A stretch of 64,000 bases of DNA. Origin: Acidobacterium sp. GTDB lineage: Bacteria; Acidobacteriota; Terriglobia; Terriglobales; Acidobacteriaceae. Position 1 is the first letter of the stretch. The number at the start of each line of letters is the position of its first letter. The position numbers and the translations under genes are program-made. Below the pieces are notes generated by a model that did not search any database, had not been told where the DNA came from, and worked only from the letters and a program-made list of their open reading frames with translations. The stretch is taken from positions 1-64,000 of the forward strand of contig PMUI01000042.1 of NCBI GenBank assembly GCA_003166955.1, given 5' to 3'. This document shows positions 20,829 through 41,420 of the stretch, piece by piece.

Positions 20829-23800
20829 ATGTACTCTACACGTTTCATCCCCACCGCGGGGATCGCCCGCGGTCGCGTCCACGCGTCTTTCGGCAGTCGC
20901 CAATATCGCAACAGGCGGCATCGGGTCGGCACTGCCATTCTGGTGGCAGCAGCGTTTTGCGCTATCGCCATACTGTCGGGCTGCGGAAGTATCGCCGCTA
21001 ACGTGGCGACGCTGGGAAACCTGGTGGCATCGGCTAACGCGCTTGCGTTCGGGAACGTGACGGTGGGTCAGGCGGCGAGCGCCAGCATTTCGCTGAAGAA
21101 TGCGAGCGCGAGCCCAGTCCAGATCACACAGATTGGTGTGGCCGGACAGTCGTTTACTTTGACCAGTCAGAACACGCTTCCCCTCACGCTGGCGGGTGCG
21201 GGCACTCTGAATCTGAATGTGCAGTTCAGTCCTGCAGCGGCTGGAACGGCAGCGGGGACCATAACCGTGGCCACCAATGCGAGCACGGGGAATATGACCT
21301 TTCCGCTGAGCGGCATGGGCGTAGTGGCAGTGACGAGTCCGCCGCCGGTGTCGCCCAACGTAAGCGCGATCACCTGCGGAACTGCGACCATCGTGGGTGC
21401 GGGCACAGACAATTGCACGGCGACGCTGAGTGCGGCGGCCGGAGGCAGTGGCGACACGGTGAGCTTGTCGAGCAATGACTCGGCGGTGACCGTGCCGGCC
21501 ACAGTTGCGGTTGCGGCTAACGCGAGCAGCGCCACCTTCACAGCAATTGCGATAGGCGTGAGCGCCGCGCAGAGTGCAACGATTACTGCAAGCATGGGTT
21601 CGAGCTCGGCAACATTTAATGTGCAGCTCGATCCAACGCAGTCGGGTGGCGGAACACCACTGCTGACTCTGAGCGCAAGCAGCCTGGCGTTTGGAGATGT
21701 CACGGTCAGCACCCAGGCGACCCCGCAGTTCGTGACGCTGACCTCTTCAGGCACGGCTCCTTTGACGATTTCGGCAGCGGCTGTGACCGGCGCGGGATTT
21801 GGAGTGGCCGGACCGGGCTTCCCGGTGGCGCTCAACCCGGGAGACGCGGTGACGCTGCAGGTGAAGTTCGATCCCCCTGCGTCAGGAGCGGTGAGCGGAT
21901 CTTTGACCATCACCACGAATGCTCCAGCGAACGGGACCGCGGTGATCAGCCTGAGTGGAACGGGCGACGCGGCGGCGGGCGTTCTGAGCGCGCTTTTCTG
22001 CAGCGGGGAGACCATCTCCGGCGCAGGCACGGACAGTTGCACGGTGTCACTGAGTGCAGCAGCGCCGGCGGGCGGGCTCGTAGTCAACCTGTCCAGCAGC
22101 AACTCCGCGCTGTCGGTGCCGGCGACGGTGATGGTGGCGGCGGGCGCTACCAGTGCGTTCTTCACTGCCACCGCTTCGGCAGTCACGCAGACGGTTACGG
22201 CGAATGTGATCGCAACCTCCGGCACGAACTCGAAGATTTACGCCGTGCAGCTCGAAGCGCAGGCACCGGCTTTAACCCTGAGCGAGACGAGTGTGACCTT
22301 TGGCGATGTGAACGTGAACACGCCGGCAACACAGACAGTGACGCTGACGTCGACGGGATCCTCGGCGCTGACCATCAACACAGCGACGCTGACGGGGGCG
22401 GCCTTCTCGATGTCCGGGTCGAATTTCCCGGTCACGCTGAATCCGGGACAGTCCGTAAGTCTGCTGGTGAAGTTCGATCCGACGACGGCTGGAGCAGCGA
22501 CGGGTTCGATTACCGTCATCAGCAACGCCACGGGCAACGGGACGGCGGTGGTCAGCCTGAGCGGAACGGGCGACGCGACGGCCGGTACGCTGAGCCTGGT
22601 CATGTGCAATAACCCAACGATCACCGGTGCGGGAAGCGATCCGTGCAGTGTCACGTTGAGCGCGGCTGCACCAACGGGTGGGCAAACCGTAACGCTGAGC
22701 AGCAGCAATTCTTCCGTCACGGTTCCGGCCACGGTAACGGTAGCGGCCGGGGCGACGACGGCAGGATTCGCAGCGACGGCAACGGCGGTCACGACCGCGC
22801 AGACAGCAACCCTCACCGCAACGGCGAACGGAATCACGAAGACCTACGCGCTGCAGCTGAATGCGCAGACGGTGGCGCTGAGCCTGAGCACGAACAACCT
22901 CAACTTCGGCGATGTGAACCTCAACACGCCAGCCAGCCAATCCGTGACGCTGATCTCGTCGGGCGATACCGCGCTCACTATTAATGCGGCGACCCTTGCG
23001 GGCACCGGGTTCACCATGGCCGGCGCGAGTTTCCCGGTAACTCTGAACCCGGGGCAAACGGCGACACTGCAGGTGACGTTCGATCCGACGACAGCTGGAG
23101 CGGCGACCGGTTCGATCGCCATCACCAGCAACGCCACAACGAACCCAACCGCGACGATCGCGCTGAGCGGAACGGGAGATTCGACGGCGGGCGCGCTGAG
23201 CGCGCTCTCCTGCAGCACTTCGTCCTACACCGGTGCGGGAACCGATGCCTGCACGGTGACGCTGAGCGCCGCGGCGCCAGCGGGCGGACAATTAGTGACC
23301 CTAGCCAGCAACAATACGGCTGTTACGGTGCCGGCGTCGGTGACGGTAGCGGCCGGCGCGACCACGGCTGGATTCACGGCGACGGCATCGGCGGTCACCT
23401 CCACTCAGACAGCCACGCTCACGGCAACGGCGAGCGGCGTCACCAAGGTCTATGCACTGCAGCTGAACGCACAGACGATGGGGCTGAACCTGAGCACGAA
23501 CAATCTCAACTTCGGCGATGTGAACCTTAACACGCCCACCAGCCTGTCCGCGATGCTGACCTCGGCGGGCAATACCGCGCTCACCATAAATGCGGCGACC
23601 CTGACGGGCACCGGGTTCACCATGGCCGGGGCGAATTTCCCGGTGACGCTGAACCCGGGACAAACGGCGACCCTGCAGGTGACGTTTGATCCGACCACGG
23701 CAGGAGGACAGGCAGGGTCGATCACCGTCACCAGCAACGCCACGACGAACCCAACCGCGACGATCACGCTGAGCGGAACCGGAGAATCGACGGCAGGTGT

Positions 23801-26753: not shown

Positions 26754-27407
26754 TCAGAGCACGACCTTCCGACAATAGAATGCTTCAGCGTAACCGCTGG
26801 GCGAGTTACATTCCATTCCGCGGAGCCGCATGAGCGAATGGAAAGTGGATTCCTGGAACCAGCTGCGATTGCGCTGAGACGCGAAGCCGTCCATCAGATG
26901 GCGGACCTTTGCCTGGCACATTTCTTTGGTCAGGGGTACGAAGACACAAGGACGGCCCATATCGCCGTCGTACTTGGGAATCTCGTACTCCAGTATGAAG
27001 TGATTGCGGAAGGTGTTCCAGGTCAGCTCGGAGAGCAGGCGGTGATCCTGATGCGCGTCCTGACGCTGGTGCGTAAAGATGATGTCCGGATCCACTTTTT
27101 GCTTGAGCTCTTCGAAGGTGGCTTTAACCTCCGAACCGACGAAGGGCATAAAGCCGTCCGGGTATTCTTTGAGCATCAGGCGCTCGAGCCGGTCGGCGCC
27201 CGCGAACGACTCCGCGGCGCGCTGCGCCTCCGCCTTGCGAACGCCCATGGCGTTGAAGACGACCCAGTGAAAGGAACAGTCCGGATATTGATCGATGAGG
27301 CGGAGAATAGTGCCGCCGCAGCCGATTTCGATGTCATCTGAATGGGACCCGAGGCAAAGAACTTTGAGGGGCCCGTCCTTTTTTGCGTCCAGGCTCAGCT
27401 TGATCAT
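26754..27407 (-). CDS. PIG-L family (LmbE-like) deacetylase
   Basis: This is a zinc-dependent N-deacetylase of 217 residues, the usual family size. The metal-binding HSDDxE motif (SHSDDIEIGCGG) is near residue 22, and the conserved HQDHR, which completes the metal site, is near residue 117. Family members deacetylate GlcNAc-type sugars or glycolipids. Here it precedes WbpA on the same strand (75-nt gap) in a polysaccharide region, so removal of an N-acetyl group from a glycan or nucleotide sugar is plausible. It has no signal peptide and is predicted cytoplasmic. The substrate cannot be told from sequence. Confidence 0.85.
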   Translation of the reverse strand: MIKLSLDAKKDGPLKVLCLGSHSDDIEIGCGGTILRLIDQYPDCSFHWVVFNAMGVRKAEAQRAAESFAGADRLERLMLKEYPDGFMPFVGSEVKATFEELKQKVDPDIIFTHQRQDAHQDHRLLSELTWNTFRNHFILEYEIPKYDGDMGRPCVFVPLTKEMCQAKVRHLMDGFASQRNRSWFQESTFHSLMRLRGMECNSPSGYAEAFYCRKVVL

Positions 27408-27703
27408 AAGAAGTCGCAGTCTTTCGGAGTGAAATTGGTTTTTGTGGGGGCAGCTCCGGCGAGCGACCCAATTTTACCTGGGGTTCTGTCGTAACTAGAC
27501 TGTGGTAACTGGCTCGAAAATACTCGCCAAGGTGGCGAATTACTCGCTGATGGTGTCTGAATTACAGCCTTTTGTAGTCAGGAATTTCAGGACGACAAGT
27601 CTTTTCTGATCATAAGTTTAGGATGATCGGAATGGCTCCTGGATGGCGACTGACGTGCTACGTAAAAAGGCAAGACTCCAGTTTCTTCCAAGAGGTTTGC
27701 AGT

Positions 27704-29518
27704 ATGTCCAGAAGGGCCCCCTTTTTTGTGTTCGCGATCGTGGTGTGTCTTGCAGCGCTGCCGGGGCAGCGTCTGATGGCGCAGAGTTACAGTCTTCCCA
27801 ACGACAATACCAGTTGTCCGGGAAATTGCCGTGTGGTTCCGTGGCAGGCCGGATCCGATTTGTGGAACGGCGGCACGCTGCCCAATTATCCGTCGGTCAA
27901 CTGCACGGGGCTGGCCGGCAATGGCACCACCAACGACGGACCTGCGCTCCAGGCCTGCATCAACAGCGCGGCGGCCAACACTGCGGTTTACGTTCCGGCC
28001 GGCACGTATCTGATCAACAGCACCGTGCAATTGAAGAGCAACGTGGTTCTCCGAGGCGCCGGCCCCTCCAGTACCCTGTTCAATTTCGGTTCCAACGGAC
28101 AGTTCACAACGCAGGGCTTCTCGTATCAGTCGAACATGACGCCCGGCGTCACGTACGGTTCCAACACCCCCGGCTATAAGCTGAGCGGCGCGCCCAAGAA
28201 GGGTGACACCACCGTCACCATCGCCAGCGGCTCGGTGCAGCCCGGCGCCTGGATTTCCGTCTTCGCCGACGACGACCCCAGCCTGGTGAACACTACCGGC
28301 TCGGATGGTTTCTGCGAGTGGTGCGGCGACAACACCGGTTATCGCGTGATGCAGCAGATCGTGCAGGTCACCGCGGTTACCGGTTCAACACTGACTCTGT
28401 CGCGGCCCCTCTACTACACTCTGTACACCAATCCCGAGTACCGCATCTACACCTTCCCCACGCAGAAGGCCGGCTTCGAGAACTTCAAGGCGTCAGCCGG
28501 CAACGCAGATATCGGCTCCAACCAGATCCTCTTTCTGCAGGGCTGTTTGTACTGCTGGGTCAAGGGCGTGGAAACCTACATGACGGGCAGCAGCAGCGGC
28601 TCGGCGCACGTCGAAATGGACTTCTGTTACGGCAATGAGATCCGCGACTCTTACTTCCACGACGGCCGCTCTTCGGCCTCCGGTGCCAACTACGGCGTGT
28701 TCGTCAACTTCGTCAACAGCGATCTCAAGATCGAGAACAACATCATGCGCCACAACCGCCACGGCTTCGTCTTTCAGGGCGGCGGCTCCGGTGTCGTGTT
28801 TCTCTATAACTACATCGACGACTTATACAGCGACGATTTGACTTACCTCGGATCGGCGCGCACCTCGCACGGCGCCCATCCTTACATGGACCTGCTGGAA
28901 GGCAACGTGGCTTCCCACATTACGGCCGACGACTACTGGGGCAGTTCCTCGCACTTCGTCTTCTACCGCAACTGGCTGTGGGCCGATGAAACCGGCACCG
29001 GCGTGCCCAGCTTCCCTCCGGGAGAGGGTTACGACGCGGTTGATCTCTACACCATGCAGGTCTACTACTCGTTCGTCGGCAATGTGCTCGGTCATGCCGG
29101 AATGCAGGCGAACTTTGCGTCTGCGACTCTCAGTGGATTCGACTCGTACGCCGAATCCACCGATCCCATCATCTACAGCATGGCCGGGAGTGCGGGCAGC
29201 ATCGCCAGTGCCAGCACTACTTCACTGCTGCACGGCAACTGGGATTACAAGAGCAACGGGGTGGCTTACTGGAACGGCGGCACCAACCACACCCTGTCGG
29301 CTTCTCTCTACTATCCAAGCGAGCCAGGCTTCCTGCACGGCTATGCGTGGCCGCTGGAAGGACCCGAGGGTGGCCCGACGATCAACCCCAACCCCGCGGA
29401 GAACTGCTATCTCAGCGGACCGGCCAAGGGCGGATCGTTTAACCCCGCCACCTGCTATGCCTCCGGTCCTACTCCGGCGGCTCCCACCACCCTCTCCGGT
29501 ACCATCGCCATCCAGTAA
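27704..29518 (+). CDS. Secreted pectate-lyase-like parallel beta-helix protein (copy 1)
   Basis: A 604-residue exported protein. The ATG at 27704 has AAGAGG 8 nt upstream and starts a signal peptide (FFVFAIVVCLAALPG, cleavage after MAQ). A pectate_lyase_3/GH28-like entry follows (GTTNDGPALQACINSAAANTAVYVPAGTYLI). The body is a right-handed beta-helix with many N- and G-rich turns (ENNIMRHNRHGFVFQGGGSG, LYNYIDD) and Cys pairs. Such folds bind or cleave uronic-acid-rich polysaccharides, and the locus makes uronic sugars, so trimming or releasing the exopolysaccharide is a reasonable inference. Catalytic residues cannot be assigned. A close paralogue lies at 39567-41420; the two flank the CDP-sugar block in the same orientation. 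Confidence 0.82.
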   Translation: MSRRAPFFVFAIVVCLAALPGQRLMAQSYSLPNDNTSCPGNCRVVPWQAGSDLWNGGTLPNYPSVNCTGLAGNGTTNDGPALQACINSAAANTAVYVPAGTYLINSTVQLKSNVVLRGAGPSSTLFNFGSNGQFTTQGFSYQSNMTPGVTYGSNTPGYKLSGAPKKGDTTVTIASGSVQPGAWISVFADDDPSLVNTTGSDGFCEWCGDNTGYRVMQQIVQVTAVTGSTLTLSRPLYYTLYTNPEYRIYTFPTQKAGFENFKASAGNADIGSNQILFLQGCLYCWVKGVETYMTGSSSGSAHVEMDFCYGNEIRDSYFHDGRSSASGANYGVFVNFVNSDLKIENNIMRHNRHGFVFQGGGSGVVFLYNYIDDLYSDDLTYLGSARTSHGAHPYMDLLEGNVASHITADDYWGSSSHFVFYRNWLWADETGTGVPSFPPGEGYDAVDLYTMQVYYSFVGNVLGHAGMQANFASATLSGFDSYAESTDPIIYSMAGSAGSIASASTTSLLHGNWDYKSNGVAYWNGGTNHTLSASLYYPSEPGFLHGYAWPLEGPEGGPTINPNPAENCYLSGPAKGGSFNPATCYASGPTPAAPTTLSGTIAIQ

Positions 29519-30266: not shown

Positions 30267-31421
30267 TTACTGCACACCGGACATTTCGTGCTGGACAAAA
30301 TCCTGTTCGACAGCAGCGGCCAACTCCCTGAGAGCCCGCTTCCTCGCCTGCAGTTTAGGCAGAGGCTGCATGCCGACCATCTCGAGGATGGACTCCCAGC
30401 GATAGGCCCAGTCGTGATGCAGCAGGGACTGAGTTATGTTCTTGCGCCGGACTTTCATCTGGCGTTCGGGATCCTTGTCCAGTTCGCGAATCACCGAGAC
30501 GATCTCGTCGGATGTGAATGGAACTTCGATGACCGCGTCGGGCCAGTTGAAAATCTTCTCGAATTCCGGATTGTTCGAGGGGCGCATTCCCAGCATGATG
30601 CACCCCGGCGCCGCAGACTCGACGTAGCGGTTGCCGAATTCACTTAGGCCGCCGGTTTCTTCCGGTTTGTCGAACTTACCCGGACTGACGATAAAATAGC
30701 GGCTGCGCTTTGCCATGTTAGCCATTAGAATCCGATGCTCTTCGAGGTTGTAGGCGCGCAGGCTGTCGATGGTGTCGTAGACGTAGAACTTGCCGTCGTC
30801 CTCGGCCATTTTCAGAAGAGCCTGGTGGGTTGCCGGGGCTCTGCGGCCGATACTCAGAACGTCGATGCTCCGTGCCGGCGGGTTGGGGTAAGGGCAAAAT
30901 CGCAGCGTATCGATGCCGGCAGGAAGAAACGAACTCTGTCCTTTGAGATAGGCCTTGAAAGGCTCATTGGCGACAAACATGAAGACGACATAATCGAATT
31001 GCGCGAGGACCTCGAGACAGCTCTTATAGACGGGAATGTCTTTGATGTAGAACTCCATGATCCAGCAAACGGATTTCTTGCAGCGATCACGCAGTCCTTT
31101 GAGGGCCTTCAGGTGCAACAGTTCCGATACGCGCTCGCATACCGTGAAGAACATGTCGTAGTCGCGATCGATGGAGATCGACGGAATGCCGGGGTTGAGT
31201 GGCAGGGCGGCGAATTCTCCAACACGCGCGGCGACTCGCCGGCCATGCGGATACCATTTCGAGGGCTTGGGCGCCAGCACGTCCACGTCATCGATATCCT
31301 GCAGGAGTTTTTCAAACTCCTGGAAGGAGCACCGCCAGACGAGAGGGTCGAAAATGTTCCGGTTGGAGAACAACAGGATGCGCGGGTTTCCCTGCTGTTC
31401 CTGCGAAGAATCGACGGGCAT
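30267..31421 (-). CDS. Glycosyltransferase, GT4-like (GT-B fold)
   Basis: This is a 384-residue predicted sugar transferase. The N-terminal half has the Rossmann-like start RILLFSNRNIFDP. The C-terminal half carries IDVLSIGRR, a GNRYVESAAPGCIMLG segment and a final helix of the GT-B type (glycosyltransferase 1-like domain PF13524/13692). No TM segments are seen, so it likely acts at the inner face of the membrane on the lipid-linked repeat unit. I chose the ATG at 31421 because GAGG lies 6 nt upstream; a TTG one codon earlier is also possible. It follows the CDP-glucose dehydratase gene closely (27 nt), suggesting it may transfer the CDP-derived deoxysugar. Donor and acceptor are unknown. Confidence 0.7.
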   Translation of the reverse strand: MPVDSSQEQQGNPRILLFSNRNIFDPLVWRCSFQEFEKLLQDIDDVDVLAPKPSKWYPHGRRVAARVGEFAALPLNPGIPSISIDRDYDMFFTVCERVSELLHLKALKGLRDRCKKSVCWIMEFYIKDIPVYKSCLEVLAQFDYVVFMFVANEPFKAYLKGQSSFLPAGIDTLRFCPYPNPPARSIDVLSIGRRAPATHQALLKMAEDDGKFYVYDTIDSLRAYNLEEHRILMANMAKRSRYFIVSPGKFDKPEETGGLSEFGNRYVESAAPGCIMLGMRPSNNPEFEKIFNWPDAVIEVPFTSDEIVSVIRELDKDPERQMKVRRKNITQSLLHHDWAYRWESILEMVGMQPLPKLQARKRALRELAAAVEQDFVQHEMSGVQ

Positions 31422-31448
31422 CAATGACCTCGAAAATCTCTGGATATT

Positions 31449-32579
31449 CTACTTGTGTGCAGGGAGCCAGGCTTCGGCGGGACTCATCGATTCTTCCGCG
31501 GGCGAGGACAGCGCTTCATATTGCTGAATCTGGCCTCGTGTCAGCTGGCCGAGGTCGCCGCGGTCCAGGAACGAGCGATACCACAGCGCAATCCACTCCA
31601 GCGCCGGCTCCAGCGGCAGCACAGGACGCCACTTCAAATAGACCTTCGCCCTGGAGGCGTCGAGCTTGAGGAGGTGCGCCTCATGGGGATGCGCTGCTTC
31701 ATCCAGCGTCCACCGCGCGCCCGGACCCCAGGACTTCACGAGCCTGTCGGCAATCCACGACACCGGCTTTGCGTCGTCTTCCGCGGGGCCAAAATTCCAG
31801 CCCGATGCGAAGGTTTTTGGATCGCGGGTCAGAGCCTCCGCCAGCATCAGGTATCCGCGCAGGGGTTCGAGCACGAACTCCCAGGGCCGCGTCGCCAGCG
31901 GATTCCGGATGAGGCAGGGCTGATCGGCGAGGAAAGCTCGCATGAGATCGGGGATGAGCTGGTTGGCAGTCCAGTCGCCGCCACCGATCACATTGCCGGC
32001 ACGGGCGCTCGCGATTGCCACGCCGTGACGGTCGTAGGTTTCCGGAGCGAAATACGAATCGCGAAACGCGCTGGTGACGAGTTCTGCGCAGCCTTTGGAA
32101 TTGGAATAGGGATCATGACCGCCCATGCGGTCATTCTCGCGATAGGCCCAGACCCATTCGTTGTTCTCGTAGCACTTGTCGCTGGTGACGTTCACGACGG
32201 CGCAGGGATGTTCGAGTTGGCGCAGAGCCTCAAACAGATGGACTGTACCCATCACATTGGTGGAGTAGGTCTCGATGGGGTCCACATAGCCACGACTCAC
32301 TACGGTTTGCGCGGCCATATGGATGATCACCGCAGGCCGGCATTCGGCGATCGCTCCTTTGAGCCGGTCGAAGTCGCGGAGGTCCGCCATGATGGAGCGA
32401 AGGGAATTTGTAACTCCGGCCTGCTCGTAGAGATTGGGCTGCGTGGGCGGCGGGAGCGCATATCCGGTGACATCGGCTCCCAGAGCTTCGAGCCACAAAG
32501 ACAGCCAGCTGCCTTTGAAGCCGGTGTGCCCGGTGAGAAACACCCGGCGACCTTTCCAGAATTTGCGATCAGGCATCAT
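31449..32579 (-). CDS. rfbG: CDP-glucose 4,6-dehydratase
   Basis: Converts CDP-glucose to CDP-4-keto-6-deoxyglucose using bound NAD. The extended short-chain dehydrogenase fold begins with FLTGHTGFKGSWLSLWL, the characteristic RfbG variant of the GxxGxxG loop. It continues with AAQTVVSRGYVDPIETY, NVTSDKCYEN and the catalytic YSNSK. The length of 376 residues is normal (about 360). It acts with the glucose-1-phosphate cytidylyltransferase at 38344-39168 in the same block. No RfbH-type 3-dehydrase is present nearby, so the product is likely a CDP-6-deoxyhexose rather than a 3,6-dideoxyhexose. The identification is secure. Confidence 0.92.
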   Translation of the reverse strand: MMPDRKFWKGRRVFLTGHTGFKGSWLSLWLEALGADVTGYALPPPTQPNLYEQAGVTNSLRSIMADLRDFDRLKGAIAECRPAVIIHMAAQTVVSRGYVDPIETYSTNVMGTVHLFEALRQLEHPCAVVNVTSDKCYENNEWVWAYRENDRMGGHDPYSNSKGCAELVTSAFRDSYFAPETYDRHGVAIASARAGNVIGGGDWTANQLIPDLMRAFLADQPCLIRNPLATRPWEFVLEPLRGYLMLAEALTRDPKTFASGWNFGPAEDDAKPVSWIADRLVKSWGPGARWTLDEAAHPHEAHLLKLDASRAKVYLKWRPVLPLEPALEWIALWYRSFLDRGDLGQLTRGQIQQYEALSSPAEESMSPAEAWLPAHK

Positions 32580-32678
32580 GAGACAGATCCAGGGCGAACA
32601 ATGACGAGAGAAGTTGGCGGAGATCGACGCGTTGCGCGCCGGTTTGCTATCCCGCGATCCGATTCGTATCCAACACTG

Positions 32679-33977
32679 TTACTTAACGGCCAATGACTGC
32701 GCGACCGGCCAGAGATCCATTTGCTCGCTCCAGAGCTTGTCCGCCATACCGCGCGAAGGCTGTTCGACGTCGGCGAAGCCGATAACGCCGTCCTTCTTCA
32801 TATCGCGATGCAGCACGCAGTTTTCCGAAAAGCTGAATGGCAACGCATCGATGGCGCGAGCGGTCGGGGCATTGTCGGTGAGTCCATAACAGGTGAATCC
32901 GCCAACACCGTCGAGACGCTCGCCGGCTTTAAGGTCGCGCTTGGCCATGGTCAGGACTTCACAGACCGGACCTGCGATGGAGGCAACCGTTGGATCGTTG
33001 TAGAGGACGGCGCGGCCGATGGTCGACGCAATCTGAATGTGCGGCAGATGATAGGGCGTGTAGAAGACGTAGAAGGGACCGTCGCCCATCTTCACATAGC
33101 CGAGTTGCGCCTGCTTGAGCGGGTTGTCTTCGTAGACGATGACAAATCCGCCGGTGTAGGGCGCGGCGCCGAGAGCGTAGTCCACAAGGCCGGTGTCCAG
33201 CATCTGATCGGCCGGCAGCAGCTTCGACATTTCCTTCACGTGCTCACAAGGAGGCCCGTACATGCCGCGGCGGCCAGCCTGAAATCCGGTCGCGTTGGCA
33301 AGGACCGTCGTCTCCATCGAGAGCTTGGTCGCGTCGGCAAAGGAGGTGACTTTCTTTGGATCGAGGTTGTACTGCTCGGCAAACTTGCGCTGCGTCTCCG
33401 GAGTCCGGTAGTGATCCACCATACCCTTGAGGTTGCCGGCGGCCACGGTGCGCAGTCCAGTCGAGCGCAGATAGCGAAGCAGCGTCATCGCTACGCCTGG
33501 CTCTTCGCCATCGGTATGGGTCAGCACCACACCGGCGCGATCGGCACGGGCTTTGAGGACTGGGCCGAGAACGGAGTCCAGTTCCGCATTGACCAGGATC
33601 ACGTGCTTGCCGTGATCGATGGCGGAGACGACCACGCTTGCGGCGTAGTCGATGGTGCCGGTGCCCTCGATGACGATGTCGATGGCATCGCAGTCGGCGA
33701 CGACAGATGCGTCGTCGGTGAAGATCGGGATGCCGTGCTCAATGGCCGTCGCTGCATCGCGCGCCGAGCTGACGCGCCGCCATTCGGTGATGCCGGCTTC
33801 GCGAAACGCGCGCTCGGCGTGCTCCGGGGTGCGATTGACGATCGCGGCGAGTCGGATGCCGGGCGGCGGCGTTGCCATTTGCAGCGAGATGGAGCGGCCG
33901 GCCCCACCCGCGCCAATCATCGCGACCCGGATCGGCTTGCCTGATTTTTCGCGTTCCAGCAGAGCGGTATCGATCAT
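32679..33977 (-). CDS. Homoserine-dehydrogenase-like NAD(P) oxidoreductase with SAF domain
   Basis: A 432-residue protein of the COG4091 type. The Rossmann start VAMIGAGGAGRSISLQM is followed by an oxidoreductase core (VIEGTGTIDYAASVV, HTDGEEPGVAM, AGNLKGMVDHYRTPE). The C-terminal domain has SAF-like features (AKRDLKAGERLDGVGGF). The family is annotated as predicted homoserine dehydrogenase, but it recurs in my memory in CDP-sugar and polysaccharide clusters. Its position between the dehydratase and the epimerase-like gene, overlapping the latter by 4 nt, argues for a step on a nucleotide sugar or a sugar precursor. The exact reaction is unknown. Confidence 0.7.
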   Translation of the reverse strand: MIDTALLEREKSGKPIRVAMIGAGGAGRSISLQMATPPPGIRLAAIVNRTPEHAERAFREAGITEWRRVSSARDAATAIEHGIPIFTDDASVVADCDAIDIVIEGTGTIDYAASVVVSAIDHGKHVILVNAELDSVLGPVLKARADRAGVVLTHTDGEEPGVAMTLLRYLRSTGLRTVAAGNLKGMVDHYRTPETQRKFAEQYNLDPKKVTSFADATKLSMETTVLANATGFQAGRRGMYGPPCEHVKEMSKLLPADQMLDTGLVDYALGAAPYTGGFVIVYEDNPLKQAQLGYVKMGDGPFYVFYTPYHLPHIQIASTIGRAVLYNDPTVASIAGPVCEVLTMAKRDLKAGERLDGVGGFTCYGLTDNAPTARAIDALPFSFSENCVLHRDMKKDGVIGFADVEQPSRGMADKLWSEQMDLWPVAQSLAVK

Positions 33978-34570
33978 AGTGAGAGCCCCTCGCTGACCAG
34001 CGGCCAGTTGCGGTCAAGGTCGGAGAGTGCGATGGGCGGCATAGGCCATTCGATCTTAAAGGCGGGATCGTCGAAGCGGGCGCCGCGCGCGTAAGCCGGA
34101 GCGTAGTACTGCGACGTCATGTAGAAGACGTTGGTGTCGTCCTCAAGGGTCTGATACCCGTGCCCGCAACGCTCAGGGATGTAGAGCATGCGCTGATTCT
34201 CTGCGCTGAGAATCGTACCGCACCACTTGAGATACGTCGGCGACTCACTCCGGAGATCGAGGATCACGTCAAAGATCGATCCCTTCATGCAGTGGATGAG
34301 CTTGGCCTCGAGCGCGGGCGCAACCTGCAGATGCATGCCGCGCAGCGTCCCCTTATGCAGGTTGTTCGCAATGCTGGCCTGAAGCGGAACAAAGTCAATT
34401 CCCTGCTCCGCAAATTCGCGCAGGCACCATTTGCGGGCGAAGTATCCGCGATAATCCTCCCGGCGGATTGGATCCACGATCATCGCGCCAGCGACCGCGG
34501 CGGGAGTAAAAGTGAGACAGGCTCCCTGATTGCCGGCCGGCACGATCCTTTCTTCAGTCTTCAGTTGCAC
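33974..34570 (-). CDS. dTDP-4-dehydrorhamnose 3,5-epimerase-like sugar epimerase
   Basis: A cupin-fold RmlC-type protein of 198 residues. Conserved features are DYRGYFARKW, RGMHLQ with the catalytic His, the IFDVILDLR strand and YIPERCGHGYQTLED. Because the block makes CDP-4-keto-6-deoxyglucose and no dTDP-glucose genes are seen, it probably epimerises that CDP-sugar at C3 and/or C5. The start is a GTG at 34570 with AAGAGG 7 nt upstream. The stop overlaps the next gene start by ATGA, indicating translational coupling. Family assignment is solid; substrate is inferred. Confidence 0.82.
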   Translation of the reverse strand: MQLKTEERIVPAGNQGACLTFTPAAVAGAMIVDPIRREDYRGYFARKWCLREFAEQGIDFVPLQASIANNLHKGTLRGMHLQVAPALEAKLIHCMKGSIFDVILDLRSESPTYLKWCGTILSAENQRMLYIPERCGHGYQTLEDDTNVFYMTSQYYAPAYARGARFDDPAFKIEWPMPPIALSDLDRNWPLVSEGLSL

Positions 34571-34636
34571 GAAATGACCTCTTATGGTTTGTCAACAGCC
34601 TGAACGATAAGTGCAATGAGCGCGCGTTCTGCGAGT

Positions 34637-35290
34637 TTACTTTTTGGCAGAACATACAAAGAAGTATTCGACGGCCATCGCCGGAGTAAAGATGGGAATG
34701 TTGAAGTTGACCTTCATCTGCAATCCCTGGAGAGAGCGCTTGCCTGGCTGCTTCTGACGCCAGTGATGCGATACCGGAAAATACCTCTCGACGTGAAAGA
34801 CCTTCTTCAGGTGCTCGGCCATTTCTGCGATGGACTTAACGTTATTGTAGTTGGGCCAGACCAGCCGGCGGAAGTGTCCAAAGTTGATGTAGGACATGAT
34901 GAACTTGCCGTCGTTCTTCATGATGGCCCGGATTTCATCGAACTTGCGATCCTGCTGCTGGCCCATGTACTCGAAAAGGCCCATGGCAACCACGAAATCG
35001 AAGTGCTTTCCGGAAAAATCGATCGGGTCATTGGCAATGTCGATCTCCTGCAGGTACGGCGCCGGATCATGGATGGCGATGTCGATGCCGTGGTAAGCGA
35101 CATTCGGTCTCAGCACCGAACGCAGCGCCGCGGGTCCGCAGCCCACATCCAGCAGCGTGCAGTCCCTGTCGCCGGCCATCTCATTCACGATGCGACCGCA
35201 CTTCCTAAGGCGAAAGCTGACGGCCGCATACTGGGCGTTCTCGACAATCCAGTAATCTCTGCTTCGAAAATTTTCAACTGCCTGGTTCAT
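34637..35290 (-). CDS. SAM-dependent methyltransferase (class I)
   Basis: A methyltransferase of about 217 residues with the SAM-binding motif LLDVGCGPAALRS, an acidic motif (GIDIA) and a post-motif segment FDFVVAMGLFEYMG. The start at ATG 35290 is preferred because AGAGG lies 5 nt upstream; an upstream in-frame extension looks untranslated. It lies between the pyruvyl-transferase-like gene and the epimerase-like gene in the CDP-sugar block. O- or C-methylation of the deoxysugar or of the assembled glycan is possible. It does not resemble the roughly 400-residue TylC3-type sugar C-methyltransferases. The target cannot be assigned. Confidence 0.75.
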   Translation of the reverse strand: MNQAVENFRSRDYWIVENAQYAAVSFRLRKCGRIVNEMAGDRDCTLLDVGCGPAALRSVLRPNVAYHGIDIAIHDPAPYLQEIDIANDPIDFSGKHFDFVVAMGLFEYMGQQQDRKFDEIRAIMKNDGKFIMSYINFGHFRRLVWPNYNNVKSIAEMAEHLKKVFHVERYFPVSHHWRQKQPGKRSLQGLQMKVNFNIPIFTPAMAVEYFFVCSAKK

Positions 35291-35356
35291 GGAATCCTCT
35301 GGGGTCTTGAAATGAATCGCCGGCGCGCAAGGCATCCGGCAGTGGTGCTTTGATCT

Positions 35357-36664
35357 TTATCGTGAACGGCGCTGAAGCTCGCCGAAGAGCAGATCGTATT
35401 CCTCGTCGAGAAGAGCACGATACTCTTTTGCCTTTGCGGCGATCAGCGGCTTGACTTCTTCGCCGCGCGCCTCCAGCTCAGTGAAATGGCCGATGAGTCT
35501 TTGCAGATCCACTTCCTCCAGCGGCTGACAATATTTGCCGAGTCCCACACCCTCAAGCAGAAAATCCGTTTTGGGGTCATAGGAAATGGATACCGCGGGG
35601 ATGTTCATCATCAAGCCGAGCAGCAGGTTATGGAATCGCGGGGAGACAACGATGTCGCACTCACCAATTTGCGCGATGAGATCCTCGACTCCCCTGGCGC
35701 CTTCATCGATGATTCCGGCTTCCTGGTAGCGGATTCCCTTCTTCTCCAGCCTGGCTCTGAGTTCGGCTCTGGTGGTCGCGTCATTCTTCGCATCGCCCTG
35801 CAGAATGCGAACGGCGTAATGATGCTCAACCAGCCACACGACGAACTCGCACATCGTATTCAGGTAATTTTCGTACCGTGCCTGATGTTCCTCCGGAGTC
35901 CAGAGATGAATGTCGCGATGATCCATGACGCCGAGGCCAACCTGTCGAACAGCGCGCTTGCGGTTCGCGCGCTGCGGGAACATCTCGGGATCAAGGCTCC
36001 AGGCCAGGTCGGGAAAAACGTAGTCCTTATCGTTATCGAAGCCGATCTTTCTGATTCGGTCTCTCGTATTCTCGTCGCGGAAGCTTCGGAACTCAGCCCG
36101 CGAGAGAGCACGGCGGAGCAGCCGCTTGCTCAGATTCCCGTAGATCGGACCCGCGCCCACTCCGACGAAAGCGACTTTGCATCCCGCGAGCCGGGCGGCG
36201 CCGGTCCATCGGAAAATGTCGTAGGGAAAGCCGGTCGCGGTTGTCATGTAGTCGGTGAGCATCCCGGTACCGGTCATGACGAGCAGGTCGGCGCCGCGCA
36301 GAGCGCGCCTCGCGCCCAACCAGTCGTTGAGCTCACCCGGCACGCGCAGACAGAGCCGCAGAAGCTTCTCGAATTTTCCGCGCAAGCCGCCGCGGCGCTT
36401 GACGCCGCCAAAGTTCTGCTGCGACACGGGAATCGCCGGCATCTGGTGCCGCTCGGCCGTATCTTCGGTCTTATAGCTGACTGCGCTGAATTCGCCGCCG
36501 GGCAGACGCTTGCGAGCATTCTGCACGATGGCCTGCAGCGTGCACTCGTTGCCGATGTTCTGCACGCCAAAGACGCCGAAGAAGACAATCCTGCATTTCG
36601 CTGCGGTCGCCGCAGCAGATCCCTGTACGGCAGGGGGCATAGCCGTCTCGTACTCCACAGGCAT
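35357..36664 (-). CDS. Polysaccharide pyruvyl transferase family protein
   Basis: This 435-residue protein belongs to the CsaB/WcaK family (PF04230), which transfers pyruvate from phosphoenolpyruvate to sugars as a ketal. Characteristic features are FFGVFGVQNIGNECTLQ at the start, DLLVMTGTGMLTDY, AFVGVGAGPIYG, SFRDENTR, and a C-terminal SPRFHNLLLGLM with conserved Arg-Phe-His. I set the start at ATG 36664, just 2 nt after the flippase stop; the longer upstream frame is Arg-rich and not protein-like. It likely adds an acidic pyruvate ketal to the exopolysaccharide. Family call is good; activity is inferred. Confidence 0.85.
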   Translation of the reverse strand: MPVEYETAMPPAVQGSAAATAAKCRIVFFGVFGVQNIGNECTLQAIVQNARKRLPGGEFSAVSYKTEDTAERHQMPAIPVSQQNFGGVKRRGGLRGKFEKLLRLCLRVPGELNDWLGARRALRGADLLVMTGTGMLTDYMTTATGFPYDIFRWTGAARLAGCKVAFVGVGAGPIYGNLSKRLLRRALSRAEFRSFRDENTRDRIRKIGFDNDKDYVFPDLAWSLDPEMFPQRANRKRAVRQVGLGVMDHRDIHLWTPEEHQARYENYLNTMCEFVVWLVEHHYAVRILQGDAKNDATTRAELRARLEKKGIRYQEAGIIDEGARGVEDLIAQIGECDIVVSPRFHNLLLGLMMNIPAVSISYDPKTDFLLEGVGLGKYCQPLEEVDLQRLIGHFTELEARGEEVKPLIAAKAKEYRALLDEEYDLLFGELQRRSR

Positions 36665-36666
36665 AC

Positions 36667-38277
36667 TCACGATGTCGCCATCCTCGCTTTGAACGTAGTC
36701 CTGAGCTTGCCGGCGAGGAAGAAGGCGCTCTCGCGCGGGCGCCGGAACAGGAGAATCAATGCGCCGCCTGCGACGAGACCAACCGGGCCGCAGACCAGGA
36801 GCTGCACGATGGGCGCAGCATGATCGACCATTCTGTAAGCCAGATACGTGGTCAGGAGAACAGCTCCCCAGCAGGGCAGGTGCGACACGAAGCCGCTCCA
36901 GAGATCGCGCGTTCGTACTGGCCCGCTCCGGCCGGCGATGGCGTAGACGATCGGCAGCCGAACCGCGATGCTGACGATCGCCAGCGATGTGACGACACCG
37001 ATCGGACCCCAATGCAAGCCCAGCAGGTACGAGACGATGGTGACCAGTCCCGCCGCTGTATGGTTGCGAAGCTGATCCTTACCTCTTCCCTGGCTTTCAT
37101 AAATCCAGCTGCAGATGCTCGAGAGCGGCGTGGACACGGCCACCAGAGTGAAGACCGCGAACAAGGGAATTGCGGCGCTCCATTTTGGCCCGAGGATCAC
37201 CAGAACCAGCGGCCTGGCCAGAGCGAGACACATCGCGGAAAACGAAAACACGATGAGGGCGAGCGTGCCATAAGCCCGCATATAACTGCGCCGGTAGCGT
37301 TCAGGGTCCCCTTGCAGGCGAGAGAGGACGGGGATAAGAACGTTGTTAATCGGCGTGATGACCTGCTGAATGGGCCGCGCGAGCAGAACGTTGGCGCGGG
37401 TGTAAAGCCCAAGCGGCACCGCTCCGAAGAACCGACCCAGCAGGATGCTGTCAGTGTTGACGGAGAACTGACCGATGAAGTCGGCAATGCTGAGGTGCGC
37501 GCCAAAGCTGATCAGGGGTTTGACGCCGCTGTTCCGCGAAGGCAGATTCGGACGCCATCCGGAAATCAGCCAGGTCATGATAAGTGCGCCGCCGGTGGTG
37601 GCCAGCTGTTGCGCCACTAATGACCAGTAAGAGAAGCCGCGCCAGGCCATCACGCAGGCAAGCCCAAAGCCGACAAAGCTGGAAGTCACGTCGATCACCG
37701 CCAGCATCGGGAATCGCATTTGCCGCGTCAGCAGAGCCTGGTGCTGCACGGTTGACCCTGTCAGCAGAAACGTCACTGACAGAGCCAGCATGATGCCTTT
37801 GACGCGCGGATCGTGGTAGAACGCAGCGGTCAGCGGCGCCAGGCCAGCAGTGACCATCGCCAGGATCCCGCTGAAGCCCACGTTGATCCAGAAGAGATTC
37901 GATACCTGGGCCTGCGTGATCTTGTCGCGCTGGATAGTCGCGATCGAGAGCCCCAGCTGGGTGAACACGGAGACGAGCGCAGTGACCCCGAGAACCATGC
38001 CCACCAGTCCGAAATCTCTCGGGCTAAGCAGGCGGGCCAGAACCGCGGCGGCCAGGAAGTTCAGAGTGAACTTCGCCGCCTGAGCCGAAACGGTGACAAA
38101 GCCGCCGGAGACCGCGCGGTGTCCGATGTTCGAGAGCAGGTGGTCGGTGCGGAAGTGCTCCGACTCCCCTTCGGCCGTATGATTCTCTGCCTCGACCAAA
38201 TTCAGATCACTGCTCAAGCGGCCTCCCGCTGTCTCTGTCTCATTCGCTGATGGGGTTGCGCTTCCCGAGACGAACAT
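36667..38277 (-). CDS. Polysaccharide flippase, Wzx/WzxC-like (MOP superfamily)
   Basis: A 536-residue polytopic membrane protein with an N-terminal cytoplasmic tail of about 50 residues, then about 12-14 predicted TM helices. The PST/WzxC-type signature includes LLSPRDFGLVGMVL near the second helix, NLFWINVGFS, and SFGAHLSIADFIGQFSVNTDSILLGRFFGAVPLGLYTRA in segments. It moves the undecaprenyl-linked repeat unit across the inner membrane. It is the only flippase in the window, while the polymerase is about 10 kb away at 47290. The two blocks therefore probably serve one polysaccharide. Confidence 0.88.
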   Translation of the reverse strand: MFVSGSATPSANETETAGGRLSSDLNLVEAENHTAEGESEHFRTDHLLSNIGHRAVSGGFVTVSAQAAKFTLNFLAAAVLARLLSPRDFGLVGMVLGVTALVSVFTQLGLSIATIQRDKITQAQVSNLFWINVGFSGILAMVTAGLAPLTAAFYHDPRVKGIMLALSVTFLLTGSTVQHQALLTRQMRFPMLAVIDVTSSFVGFGLACVMAWRGFSYWSLVAQQLATTGGALIMTWLISGWRPNLPSRNSGVKPLISFGAHLSIADFIGQFSVNTDSILLGRFFGAVPLGLYTRANVLLARPIQQVITPINNVLIPVLSRLQGDPERYRRSYMRAYGTLALIVFSFSAMCLALARPLVLVILGPKWSAAIPLFAVFTLVAVSTPLSSICSWIYESQGRGKDQLRNHTAAGLVTIVSYLLGLHWGPIGVVTSLAIVSIAVRLPIVYAIAGRSGPVRTRDLWSGFVSHLPCWGAVLLTTYLAYRMVDHAAPIVQLLVCGPVGLVAGGALILLFRRPRESAFFLAGKLRTTFKARMATS

Positions 38278-38343
38278 CGGCGCGATGGCGATGCATTTTC
38301 CGTCCGCGTCGAATTGCGGCTAAGCTGCCTGGTTTCTCTCACT

Positions 38344-39168
38344 TCACTTGCCGACCAGCACGGGCTCCTCTATCGCCTTCTTCTTCGCACGGCCGTTCTT
38401 CGACCACACCTGCCAGGGAGCTCCACCTTTAGACCAGAGATCTTCCAGCTGCTGTCTCTCCTTGAAGGTGTCCATGCAGGCCCAGAATCCTTCATGCTTG
38501 ATCGTGATCAGTTCCCTCGCCTCGATGAGCCGCGCGAATGGTTCGTCAACCAGATCCTCGCCCGAACGAATGTAGTCGAAAATCCGCTGACGGAACACAA
38601 AATAGCCGCCGTTGATCCACTTCTGAGACGTCTGGGCGTGGTTGATGCTGGTGACGTTGTCCCCATCGGTTTCCACCAGATGGAACGTCTGCGTCGGAGG
38701 CACCGACACAAAGCACGCCGTCTTTCCCGACTTCTTCAACCGGTCGATCGTCATGTCCAGATCGATGTCCGTCAGGCCATCCACATAGTTCGCGAGAAAG
38801 AACTCTTCGTTCTTGACGTGCTCGCGAACCTGGAGCAGGCGTTCGCCGATCAAAGACTTGGCGCCGGTGTCGGCACACGTGATTTTCCAGGTGGTGAAGT
38901 CGTCGCCGAGAAGTTGAACGGTCTTACCGCCGTCGGATAGGACGAAGTCGTTGGATATCGCTTCGTTGTAGCCGAGGAAGAACCGCTTGATCGCTTCGCC
39001 CTTATGCCCCAGGCAAAGGATGAAATCTTTGTGGCCGTAGTGGGCATAATACTTCATGAGGTGCCACATCACCGGCGCATCGCCGATGGGCACAAGCGGC
39101 TTAGGGACGTTCTCGGAATATTCCCTGAGCCGGAGTCCAAGGCCACCACAGAAAATTACTACCTTCAT
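38344..39168 (-). CDS. rfbF: Glucose-1-phosphate cytidylyltransferase
   Basis: Makes CDP-glucose from CTP and glucose-1-phosphate. The 274 residues (family about 257-260) start with the nucleotide-binding IFCGGLGLRLREYSENVPKPL. They include MKYYAHYGHKDFILCLGHKG, NYVDGLTDIDL with metal-binding Asp, and the RfbF-typical KHEGFWACMDTFKE. GGAGG lies 9 nt before the ATG. It is the first gene of the CDP-sugar block and feeds the RfbG dehydratase six genes downstream. Identification is secure. Confidence 0.93.
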   Translation of the reverse strand: MKVVIFCGGLGLRLREYSENVPKPLVPIGDAPVMWHLMKYYAHYGHKDFILCLGHKGEAIKRFFLGYNEAISNDFVLSDGGKTVQLLGDDFTTWKITCADTGAKSLIGERLLQVREHVKNEEFFLANYVDGLTDIDLDMTIDRLKKSGKTACFVSVPPTQTFHLVETDGDNVTSINHAQTSQKWINGGYFVFRQRIFDYIRSGEDLVDEPFARLIEARELITIKHEGFWACMDTFKERQQLEDLWSKGGAPWQVWSKNGRAKKKAIEEPVLVGK

Positions 39169-39566: not shown

Positions 39567-41420
39567 ATGTCAAGAAACATCCCCCGACCACTGTTTGTCA
39601 CTCTTATGTTGATCGGCGCCGCCCCCCTGTGTCTGTTTGCGGCCCTTCTTTGCTTCACAGCATTGCCGGGACAGAGCCTGGTGGCGCAGAGCTACAGTCT
39701 TCCCAATGACAACTCCAACTGCCCGGGCAACTGCCGAGTCATTGCATGGCTGGCCGGATCCGACTTGTGGAATGGCGGCACGCTGCCCACATATCCTTCG
39801 GTCACATGCTCGGGCCTTCATGCCAACGGCACTACCGACGACGGCCCCGGTATCCAGGCCTGCATTAACAACGCGGCAGCCAATACCGCGGTCTACGTTC
39901 CCGCCGGGACCTATCTGATCAACAGCACCGTGCGGCTGAAGAGCACCGTCGTACTGCGAGGGGCCGGCACCACCAGTACCCTTTTCAATTTCGGTTCCAG
40001 CGCCCAGTTCACCACTCAAAGCTTCTCCAACCAGTCCAACTTAAGCCCAGGCGTTTCTTATGGCTCCAACATGCCCGGCTATGCGCTGAGCGGTGCTCCT
40101 AAGAAGGGCGACACCACGCTGACGATCGCCAGCGGCTCGGTTAACCCCGGCGCCTTCATCGCCGTCTTCGCCGACAACGATCCGACTCTGGTCAGCGTCG
40201 ATGGGTCTGACGGCCACTGCGAATGGTGCGGTGACAACACTGGCTATCGCGTGATGCAGCAGATTGTGCAGGTCACCGCGGTCGCCGGTCAGACCCTCAC
40301 CCTCGCCCGCCCGCTCTATTACACCCTCTACACTAACCCCGAATATCGCATCTACACCTTCCCCACCCAGAAAGCCGGCTTTGAGGGTTTCAAGGTGGTG
40401 GGCACCTCAGACATCGGTTCCAATCAGATCATCCTGCTGCAGGGCTGCCTCTATTGCTGGGTGAAGGGTGTCGAAACCCAGATGACGGGGAGTTCCAGCG
40501 GTTCGGCTCACGTCGAGATGGATTTCTGCTACGGCAACGAGATTCGCGACTCCTACTTCCACGAAGGCCGCTCTTCGGCTTCCGGCGCCAACTACGGTGT
40601 CTACTTTAACTTCATCAATTCTGACACCAAGGTTGAAAACAACATTATGCGCCACAACCGCCACGCCATTGTCTATCAGGGCGGCGGCTCCGGTACGGTG
40701 GTACTTTACAACTACATCGACGACTTATACACCGACGACCTGACTTATCTTGGGTCGGCGCGCACCTCGCACGGCGGCCATCCTTATATGAACCTCTGGG
40801 AAGGCAACGTGGCTTCCCACGTCACTGCCGACGACTTCTGGGGCTCCTCCTCGCACTTCGTCTTCTTCCGCAACTGGCTGTGGGGCGATGAGACCGGCAC
40901 CGGGGTTCCCAGTTTCCCGCCCGAAGACGGCCACGACGCGGTTGACCTCTACACCATGCAGACCTACTACTCGTTCGTCGGCAACGTGCTCGGTCATGCC
41001 AGCCTCCACACCACCTGGGCCGCGGCAACCCTCAACGGCTTCGACGAATACGCCTCGGCGTCCAATCCCATCGTTTACAGCATGGCCGGGGCTTCGGGCA
41101 GCATTCCCAGTTCCAGCACCACCGCACTGCTGCACGGTAACTGGGACTACCTCAGCAACGGTGTAGGCTACTGGCAGGGCGGAACGAACCACACCCTGGC
41201 GGCCTCTCTGTACTACCCCAGCGAACCCAGCTTCCTGCACGGCTATGCCTGGCCGCTGGAAGGTCCCGAGGGCAATCCCACCATCAACCAAAATGCCGCG
41301 GAGAACTGCTACCTCAGCGGACCGGCAAAGGGCGGATCCTTTAACCCCGCCACCTGCTATACCTCCGGTCCAACTTCGGGGGTTCCCACCAGCCTCGCTG
41401 GTGTCGTCGTCGCGCAGTAA
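39567..41420 (+). CDS. Secreted pectate-lyase-like parallel beta-helix protein (copy 2)
   Basis: This 617-residue exported protein is closely similar to the product of 27704-29518 over its whole length. A longer signal peptide (MSRNIPRPLFVTLMLIGAAP, ending QSLVAQ) leads into the same SYSLPNDN, GTTDDGPGIQACIN and VYVPAGTYLI segments. The same beta-helix core and the same C-terminal ENCYLSGPAKGGSFNPATCY follow. Differences are scattered substitutions rather than indels. It stands alone on the plus strand between the two minus-strand polysaccharide operons. A role in binding or cleaving the locus polysaccharide is an inference from fold and place; active-site residues could not be assigned. Confidence 0.82.
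   Translation: MSRNIPRPLFVTLMLIGAAPLCLFAALLCFTALPGQSLVAQSYSLPNDNSNCPGNCRVIAWLAGSDLWNGGTLPTYPSVTCSGLHANGTTDDGPGIQACINNAAANTAVYVPAGTYLINSTVRLKSTVVLRGAGTTSTLFNFGSSAQFTTQSFSNQSNLSPGVSYGSNMPGYALSGAPKKGDTTLTIASGSVNPGAFIAVFADNDPTLVSVDGSDGHCEWCGDNTGYRVMQQIVQVTAVAGQTLTLARPLYYTLYTNPEYRIYTFPTQKAGFEGFKVVGTSDIGSNQIILLQGCLYCWVKGVETQMTGSSSGSAHVEMDFCYGNEIRDSYFHEGRSSASGANYGVYFNFINSDTKVENNIMRHNRHAIVYQGGGSGTVVLYNYIDDLYTDDLTYLGSARTSHGGHPYMNLWEGNVASHVTADDFWGSSSHFVFFRNWLWGDETGTGVPSFPPEDGHDAVDLYTMQTYYSFVGNVLGHASLHTTWAAATLNGFDEYASASNPIVYSMAGASGSIPSSSTTALLHGNWDYLSNGVGYWQGGTNHTLAASLYYPSEPSFLHGYAWPLEGPEGNPTINQNAAENCYLSGPAKGGSFNPATCYTSGPTSGVPTSLAGVVVAQ

Follow-up and report, generated by a model that had tools for sequence, protein, structure and literature searches.

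What is made from CDP-4-keto-6-deoxyglucose (CDP, cytidine diphosphate) when the genes for RfbF and RfbG are accompanied by genes for an RmlC-type epimerase and an unusual oxidoreductase? The question is raised by a locus on the minus strand of contig PMUI01000042.1 of Acidobacterium sp. (Acidobacteriota; assembly GCA_003166955.1, a genome of 5.4 Mb in 142 contigs), situated within the 64-kb stretch (positions 1 to 64,000) that was analysed here and is called the window. Its genes are transcribed in the order RfbF, flippase, pyruvyltransferase-like protein, methyltransferase, RmlC-type epimerase, oxidoreductase, RfbG and glycosyltransferase, and the block of RfbF, RfbG, epimerase and oxidoreductase genes with the flippase, methyltransferase and pyruvyltransferase-like genes is real. 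We propose, with moderate confidence, that the oxidoreductase acts on activated 4-ketosugars as a reductoisomerase of the DRL fold, which would give a CDP-3-C-hydroxymethyl furanose of the dihydrostreptose type. Among the matches listed from open PMC papers, we found no earlier statement that the DRL family contracts sugar rings.

The oxidoreductase is assigned to the DRL family

The predicted CDP-4-ketosugar reductoisomerase (positions 32679-33977; 432 amino acids) consists of an NAD-binding domain followed by the DRL_cat domain (PF21135; 144.3 bits against a Pfam cut-off of 27, E-value 4.5e-42). Its best sequence match among solved structures is the DRL enzyme 3UPL/3UPY (4.6e-67, residues 6-411), followed by a homoserine dehydrogenase (6.4e-09) that covers residues 49-168. 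An AlphaFold model built from 27 sequences, with a mean predicted local distance difference test (pLDDT) score of 88.6 and a predicted template modelling (pTM) score of 0.90, aligned to 3UPL in VIA-align over 421 of its 432 residues with a Z-score of 45.4 and a root-mean-square deviation of 2.4; the remaining 48 of the 50 entries listed are DXR structures with Z-scores of 16.8-19.9, one of them titled only isomerase. We assign a reductoisomerase fold because DRL and DXR structures top this comparison; no homoserine dehydrogenase appears in the list of 50 entries, which by itself excludes nothing. Foldseek, run on the same model, also places DRL chains on top (2.4e-40, template modelling score 0.89). 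By sequence and predicted structure alike, the protein is a member of the DRL (DXR-II-like) family, and by analogy this family suggests a carbon-skeleton rearrangement plus a reduction.

The first-pass annotation had described the protein as a homoserine-dehydrogenase-like SAF protein. The former label proved superficial, as only the NAD-binding part matches: at E 0.001, Pfam detected no homoserine dehydrogenase catalytic domain, only NAD-binding models beside DRL_cat, and NF004976 scored 35.9 bits against a cut-off of 205. The latter was misplaced, since no match to SAF (PF08666) was found on the oxidoreductase at E 0.001, the sole match in the genome sitting on contig C35, and the defining domain is DRL_cat. 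A function in homoserine metabolism was rejected on the grounds that the catalytic domain is DRL_cat.

The epimerase and DRL-type genes are linked across phyla

The RmlC-type 3,5-epimerase (33974-34570; PF00908 2.5e-55) is encoded directly upstream, and its gene and that of the oxidoreductase overlap by 4 nt (ATGA, 33974-33977), at the epimerase stop and the oxidoreductase start, as had been noticed in the first reading of the locus. In an alignment of 47 rows, four residues of the epimerase (His80, Lys90, Tyr150 and Asp186) are each conserved in 45 or 46. Two of these, His80 (46/47) and Tyr150 (45/47), correspond in an alignment with 3RYK to H64 and Y134 of CBU1838, given as its catalytic His and Tyr in PMC9095892.

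Relatives of the oxidoreductase were collected from a scan of genome contigs (59 loci) and, as further loci, from plasmid records; in the phylum sample, 10 of 396 genomes, the source genome included, had a match at E 1e-40. The resulting tree holds 84 proteins, one row being the solved DRL, with L042 and L060 omitted for their odd length. It contains a core clade of 43 proteins (support 99/98) that spans about 14 phyla as named in tree labels and in plasmid records, with an archaeal metagenome-assembled genome (MAG) among them. All core-clade counts include the window, and close copies within the clade (two Salinivenus, four Deinococcus, two Rhizobium) make the effective number smaller. Gene positions were taken from tblastn, as simple calling of open reading frames (ORFs) gave antisense ORFs in GC-rich loci (cluster c6).

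An RmlC gene lies within 2.5 kb of the DRL-type gene in 40 of the 43 core loci, compared with 4/21 and 0/19 in the other branches, and within 7 kb in 41/43, compared with 5/21 and 1/19, several of the 19 being short-flanked. Because of the 40 loci with RmlC within 2.5 kb, the linkage exceeds chance, and the early surmise that epimerase and oxidoreductase belong together is borne out by the 41 loci within 7 kb. The spacing of -4 seen in the window recurs in 9 of 30 close-spaced same-strand pairs among those listed (window included), and four Deinococcus plasmids carry, in this order, rfbF, lhgO, SDR (short-chain dehydrogenase/reductase), rfbC and the DRL-type gene, with rfbC and the DRL-type gene again overlapping by 4 nt. 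In the Persicobacter plasmid locus L085 (4807-8257), RfbG is separated from the DRL-type gene by two RmlC-type genes in tandem. An L-2-hydroxyglutarate-oxidase-like flavoprotein is encoded within the operon in L080, L082, L086, L101 and L043.

Anchoring residues and the presence of DXR-I separate the protein from isoprenoid synthesis

The source genome encodes an ordinary DXR (DXR-I; 456.1 bits, cut-off 315.7), and a single DRL-type gene was found in it. The fosmidomycin-anchoring residues of DXR-II are given as K191, K193 and T229 in DRL numbering (PMC3847144). At these positions the window protein has N182, K184 and L219, so that two of the three anchoring residues are lost; further changes from DXR-II are H250 to Y and R320 to T. 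In contrast, DRL K193, D225, K228, E232 and N238 are all kept, as K184, D215, K218, E222 and N228, of which the last four are invariant in 84/84 family rows and K184 is found in 82/84. Position 191 is Asn in 76 of the 84 rows and in all 43 core proteins, position 229 is Ile (25), Leu (17) or Val (1) in the core, and position 121 is Gly (34), Ala (8) or Ser (1), the window protein having Ala. Leu, Ile or Val at 229 and Ala or Ser at 121 are marks of the DLO1 proteins as described in PMC3847144. Judged from these residues, the chemistry would be retained and the anchoring of the substrate altered.

Because an ordinary DXR is present and two of the three inhibitor-anchoring residues are lost, we conclude that the oxidoreductase is not an isoprenoid gene, and an isoprenoid role was rejected. 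Proven DXR-II is represented in the tree by 3UPL alone, and the core clade branches apart from that row.

Three SDR families as predicted sources of 4-keto substrates

In the window, the 4-keto sugar would be supplied by RfbF and RfbG, as had been supposed from the start. RfbG, a CDP-glucose 4,6-dehydratase (31449-32579; motif TSDKCY), scores 471.5 bits with TIGR02622, well over the cut-off of 278.45, which supports a product CDP-4-keto-6-deoxyglucose. RfbF (38344-39168) reaches 224.1 bits (2e-66) with TIGR02623; this misses the equivalog cut-off of 300.25, yet it is by far the top score among the 11 families listed. Because of the shortfall, we only infer that RfbF uses CTP (cytidine triphosphate) and makes CDP-glucose.

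The first-pass annotation also held that neither RfbH nor an ordinary ketoreductase completes the path in the block, and this is borne out. RfbH (NF011936) gave seven matches in the source genome, all short of its 423-bit cut-off, and RmlD nine, the best at 62.9 bits against 224.05. On contig C121, a DegT-type aminotransferase gene gives the best RfbH match (216.2 bits). It was rejected as RfbH since it looks like an aminotransferase: it follows genes that are PseB-like and NeuC-like by a reading of their translations, and it keeps the lysine in FYPNKQ. RfbH carries His in place of that lysine. Another match (105.8 bits) is a DegT-type gene within the window (52286-53488).

The neighbourhood survey proposed with the first reading places an RfbF homologue within 7 kb of the DRL-type gene in 30/43 core loci. 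SDRs within 7 kb were typed by motif, namely T(S/T/D)DK(C/S)Y for RfbG, SSCSxYG for GalE-like and SE(I/V)YGDP for UXS-like proteins; RfbG accompanies the DRL-type gene in 11 core loci, a GalE-like SDR in 15 and a UXS-like SDR in 6, with none found in 11. All three families work by oxidation of their sugar nucleotide at C4, through a 4-keto intermediate. In L002, the GalE-like motif is 6.4 kb away and a nearer SDR (TIGR01181, 113.8 bits) fits no motif. A nucleotide-sugar dehydrogenase homologue is near in 6/6 UXS-like loci, that of L006 scoring 415.8 bits with TIGR03026. In L006, L007, L009, L011, L015 and L036, this homologue and the UXS-like SDR stand in place of RfbG beside the RmlC- and DRL-type genes; a CDP-pentose or apiose-like product of such loci is conceivable. 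RfbG was sought in 20 core-locus genomes, 19 of them chosen for having no RfbG at the locus, and was over cut-off only in L004, in its locus; the L006 genome gave a near miss (251.3 bits against 278.45). RfbG as an obligatory partner was rejected, as the 19 genomes without it at the locus have none over cut-off elsewhere.

Proposed reaction

Based on the family and fold and on the gene neighbourhood, we propose the following hypothetical sequence, in which stereochemistry and nucleotide, like the reaction as such, are inferred: (i) RfbF would form CDP-glucose, and RfbG would convert it to CDP-4-keto-6-deoxyglucose; (ii) the RmlC-type enzyme would epimerise the latter at C5, and probably at C3 too; (iii) the DRL-type enzyme would cleave C2-C3 by a retro-aldol step and join C2 to C4; (iv) the resulting aldehyde branch would be reduced with NAD(P)H, so that C3 ends up in the CH2OH side branch of a furanose, a skeleton that, given 5-epimerisation, is the one of dihydrostreptose. 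This would yield CDP-dihydrostreptose or one of its stereoisomers, chemically a CDP-3-C-hydroxymethyl-5-deoxypentofuranose. DXR-type enzymes, the related DXR-II among them, break the C3-C4 bond of 1-deoxy-D-xylulose 5-phosphate (DXP) by a retro-aldol reaction, form a C2-C4 bond and reduce the aldehyde, and the sugar unit C5-C4(=O)-C3(OH)-C2(OH)-C1-O-P matches DXP, CH3-C(=O)-CH(OH)-CH(OH)-CH2-O-P, atom for atom. For uridine diphosphate (UDP)-apiose synthase, isotope work supports the order retro-aldol, aldol, reduction, and the same authors suggest a similar course for dihydrostreptose (PMC5324594). The epimerase and the DRL-type enzyme would act on the part common to all front ends, C1 to C4.

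Somewhat more tentatively, we hypothesise that nucleotide-4-ketosugar reductoisomerases which pair with RmlC and contract pyranose rings form a general family built on the DRL fold. They would be fed by RfbG (the case of the window) or RmlB for products of the dihydrostreptose type, by a GalE-like C4-oxidase for those of the dihydrohydroxystreptose type, or by a dehydrogenase with a UXS-like decarboxylase for those of the apiose type. They would include the enzyme by which Coxiella burnetii contracts the ring on the way to dihydrohydroxystreptose.

Several points weigh against ring contraction. By motif, 11 of the 43 core loci lack an SDR of the three types, five of these 11 having a flank of less than 2.5 kb on a side, and many of the surveyed genomes are MAGs. 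A UXS-like front end would give a pentose, which leaves no evident task for a C5 epimerase. In the window, RfbF and the RmlC-type protein (137.2 bits with TIGR01221, cut-off 155.75) both score under their own equivalog cut-offs, and plain Foldseek places homoserine dehydrogenases right after DRL (ranks 4 to 9). We know of no activity for any protein of the core clade. Four DLO proteins failed to complement a dxr mutant according to PMC3847144, a result that bears on DXP as substrate only. DRL-family members also occur in catabolic settings, with phosphotransferase system (PTS) glucitol genes, FGGY kinases or sugar ATP-binding cassette (ABC) transporters, and for this reason the fold does not force a rearrangement. 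In L097, L099, L098 and L087, the neighbours of the DRL-family relative are PTS glucitol genes, an FGGY kinase or subunits of a thiamine-dependent dehydrogenase, which points to catabolic reactions in the family.

Alternative functions of the oxidoreductase

The main rival explanation is plain 4-ketoreduction, in which the DRL-type enzyme replaces RmlD and, leaving the skeleton of epimerised CDP-4-keto-6-deoxyglucose unchanged, gives a rhamnose- or talose-like CDP-6-deoxy-L-hexopyranose; its product would be isobaric with the proposed branched sugar. This simpler reaction, which we consider possible but rather unlikely, needs just half of DXR-II chemistry; an NAD(P)-binding domain is present, and the reading draws on loci of the deoxythymidine diphosphate (dTDP) type. 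In L045 (Bacillus, from a more distant branch), the DRL-type gene lies with a glycosyltransferase-like gene, RmlA, RmlB and RmlC, at the place where RmlD would be expected. Three further loci of the more distant branch (L037, L038 and L040) have RmlC and RmlA near the DRL-type gene, and L043 (Sulfurovum) combines RmlA, the DRL-type gene, an LhgO-like flavoprotein, RmlC and a GalE-like SDR, so that RmlA and RmlC neighbour at least five of the more distant relatives. Among 48 loci, the 43 of the core and these five, only the five have a match above 80 bits to E. coli RfbA, and E. coli RfbD (RmlD) has no such match in any of the 48. Of 14 genomes of DRL loci asked, four (L045, L043, L029 and L020) have no RmlD match at E 1e-30. 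However, RmlD is over cut-off in nine of the 14, with a tenth (L008) at 126.9 bits, so its absence from all DRL-locus genomes was rejected and, in those nine, an unrelated enzyme for the same simple step would not be needed. The catalytic domain, moreover, is that of a reductoisomerase family, with invariant residues common to DXR-II.

It is improbable that the RmlC and DRL pair instead inverts or oxidises other positions toward an unusual L-hexose. The model for such a route is the proposed CDP branch of streptomycin biosynthesis, in which StrQ, StrP, StrX and StrU lead to N-methyl-L-glucosamine. The DLO1 accession of Streptomyces griseus may be StrU of the streptomycin cluster, a link that searches of papers did not settle. 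With 32 of the 43 core loci lacking RfbG by motif within 7 kb, many may retain the 6-OH; a DLO1 protein is listed for S. griseus in Table 1 of PMC3847144, and a legend in PMC12498427 groups strP, strQ and strX as genes for streptomycin. Against this stand the true RfbG in the window, hence a 6-deoxy product, and the lack of an aminotransferase among the recurrent neighbours, for which selected families were counted; L004 has a class-III aminotransferase.

Weak matches to homoserine dehydrogenase NAD-binding models and a nearest solved relative that makes 2-C-methyl-D-erythritol 4-phosphate could hint at a protein of amino-acid metabolism or isoprenoid synthesis that is a neighbour by chance, which the RmlC linkage in 41/43 core loci, the DXR-I of the genome and the loss of two of the three DXR-II inhibitor-anchoring residues render barely credible.

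Other genes of the locus

Ring contraction, which we prefer, involves the conserved pair and its front end, and the methyltransferase and pyruvyltransferase-like genes are outside this core. Both had been counted as part of the block in the first-pass annotation, and both are indeed present in it; tblastn relatives were found in 2 (methyltransferase) and 8 (pyruvyltransferase-like) of the sequences searched, window included, the latter within 7 kb in 8/43 core loci. The S-adenosylmethionine-dependent methyltransferase (34637-35335; PF13489 1.8e-10) probably acts later, on the sugar or glycan, and has a 63% homologue in L088, a genome of the same family. The polysaccharide pyruvyl transferase family protein (PF04230 1.5e-36) occupies 35357-36586 with an uncertain start, the longest ORF reaching 37012. 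A Wzx-type flippase (36667-38277; PF13440 1.9e-78) and a glycosyltransferase adjoining RfbG (30267-31424; PF13524 9.3e-08) complete the block.

A PIG-L/LmbE-type deacetylase (26754-27407, minus strand; PF02585 3.6e-16) is encoded about 11 kb from rfbF. PIG-L homologues lie within 7 kb of the DRL-type gene in 11/43 core loci, and in 9 of the 12 loci having both genes PIG-L is at most 45 nt from rfbF; besides the window, both occur in L003, L004, L006, L007, L013, L020, L026, L027 and L091. On the plus strand, two pectate-lyase-like beta-helix proteins, 80% identical, lie on either side of the block (27623-29518 and 39567-41420), and a 1474-amino-acid protein of repeated ASH/immunoglobulin-like units is encoded nearby (20829-25253).

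Comparison with known systems

Streptose, dihydrohydroxystreptose and apiose are rare branched sugars, the first two occurring in an antibiotic and an O-antigen, respectively. If our proposal is true, the DRL-type family is a candidate for the ring contraction of dihydrohydroxystreptose, a concrete one because a linked and widespread gene family has the fold of a known carbon-skeleton reductoisomerase. The DLO proteins would gain a function, and branched CDP-sugars would be predicted in surface glycans across many phyla, with Acidobacteriota and Deinococcus among the bearers.

In Coxiella burnetii, CBU1838 is a double epimerase, and two further activities of dihydrohydroxystreptose synthesis are described as still to be identified, a C4 oxidase and a ring-contracting synthase, the latter attributed to an RmlD paralogue (PMC9095892). 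The organism has a DLO1 protein, NP_820815.1 (PMC3847144). By accession arithmetic, we infer that it is CBU_1836, near CBU1838. The step relies on matching lists by order: CBU_1829 is among 14 proteins in PMC10740251, whose 14 accessions include a single one of that range, NP_820808.1. UniProt Q83AQ2 (CBU_1829) and Q83AP6 (CBU_1835) lie six numbers apart, consistent with an uninterrupted count. An RmlA-like protein is encoded by CBU_1834 and an SDR by CBU_1837 (PMC3539893), and CBU_1835 is annotated as a protoporphyrinogen oxidase. CBU_1835 may be of the same kind as the flavin amine-oxidase family proteins of cluster c17. These are encoded about 2.5 kb past the DRL-type gene in L002, L003 and L029, and the L002 copy was scanned (PF01593; best NCBIfam PRK07208). 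Taken from accessions and annotation, the Coxiella set of RmlA-like protein, flavoprotein, SDR, CBU1838 and putative DLO1 resembles L043. Against this link, cbu0825-0856 have been assigned to dihydrohydroxystreptose and cbu1831-1838 to O-antigen sugar components (PMC5843353); contrary to this assignment, CBU1838 is argued in PMC9095892 to act in the dihydrohydroxystreptose pathway.

The window shares RfbF and RfbG with the RfbF/RfbG/RfbH pathway to 3,6-dideoxyhexoses, and has an epimerase and a DRL-type enzyme instead of RfbH, of which none is over cut-off in the genome. Its oxidoreductase resembles DXR-II/DRL (3UPL/3UPY) in its whole-length fold, in DRL_cat and in the five residues K193, D225, K228, E232 and N238, but belongs to a separate clade and is encoded beside RfbF, RfbG and RmlC in a genome with DXR-I. 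It is like DLO1, compared by the described residues, in being hydrophobic at 229 and having Ala at 121 (PMC3847144); the accessible text of that source proposes no sugar-nucleotide function for DLO1. As in UDP-apiose/xylose synthase (UAXS) and bacterial UDP-apiose synthase, a 4-keto sugar nucleotide, C2-C3 retro-aldol cleavage, ring contraction and reduction are predicted. However, UAXS oxidises, decarboxylates, contracts and reduces in one SDR-type protein, whereas the window would divide the work among an SDR, an RmlC-type and a DRL-fold enzyme. A further parallel is offered by the streptose and dihydrohydroxystreptose pathways (StrM/StrL; CBU1838), where a 4-keto sugar and an RmlC-type enzyme precede ring contraction. 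In contrast to the window, with its CDP series and a locus without RmlD, those pathways are taken as dTDP-linked, and their contraction is ascribed to an RmlD paralogue in PMC9095892.

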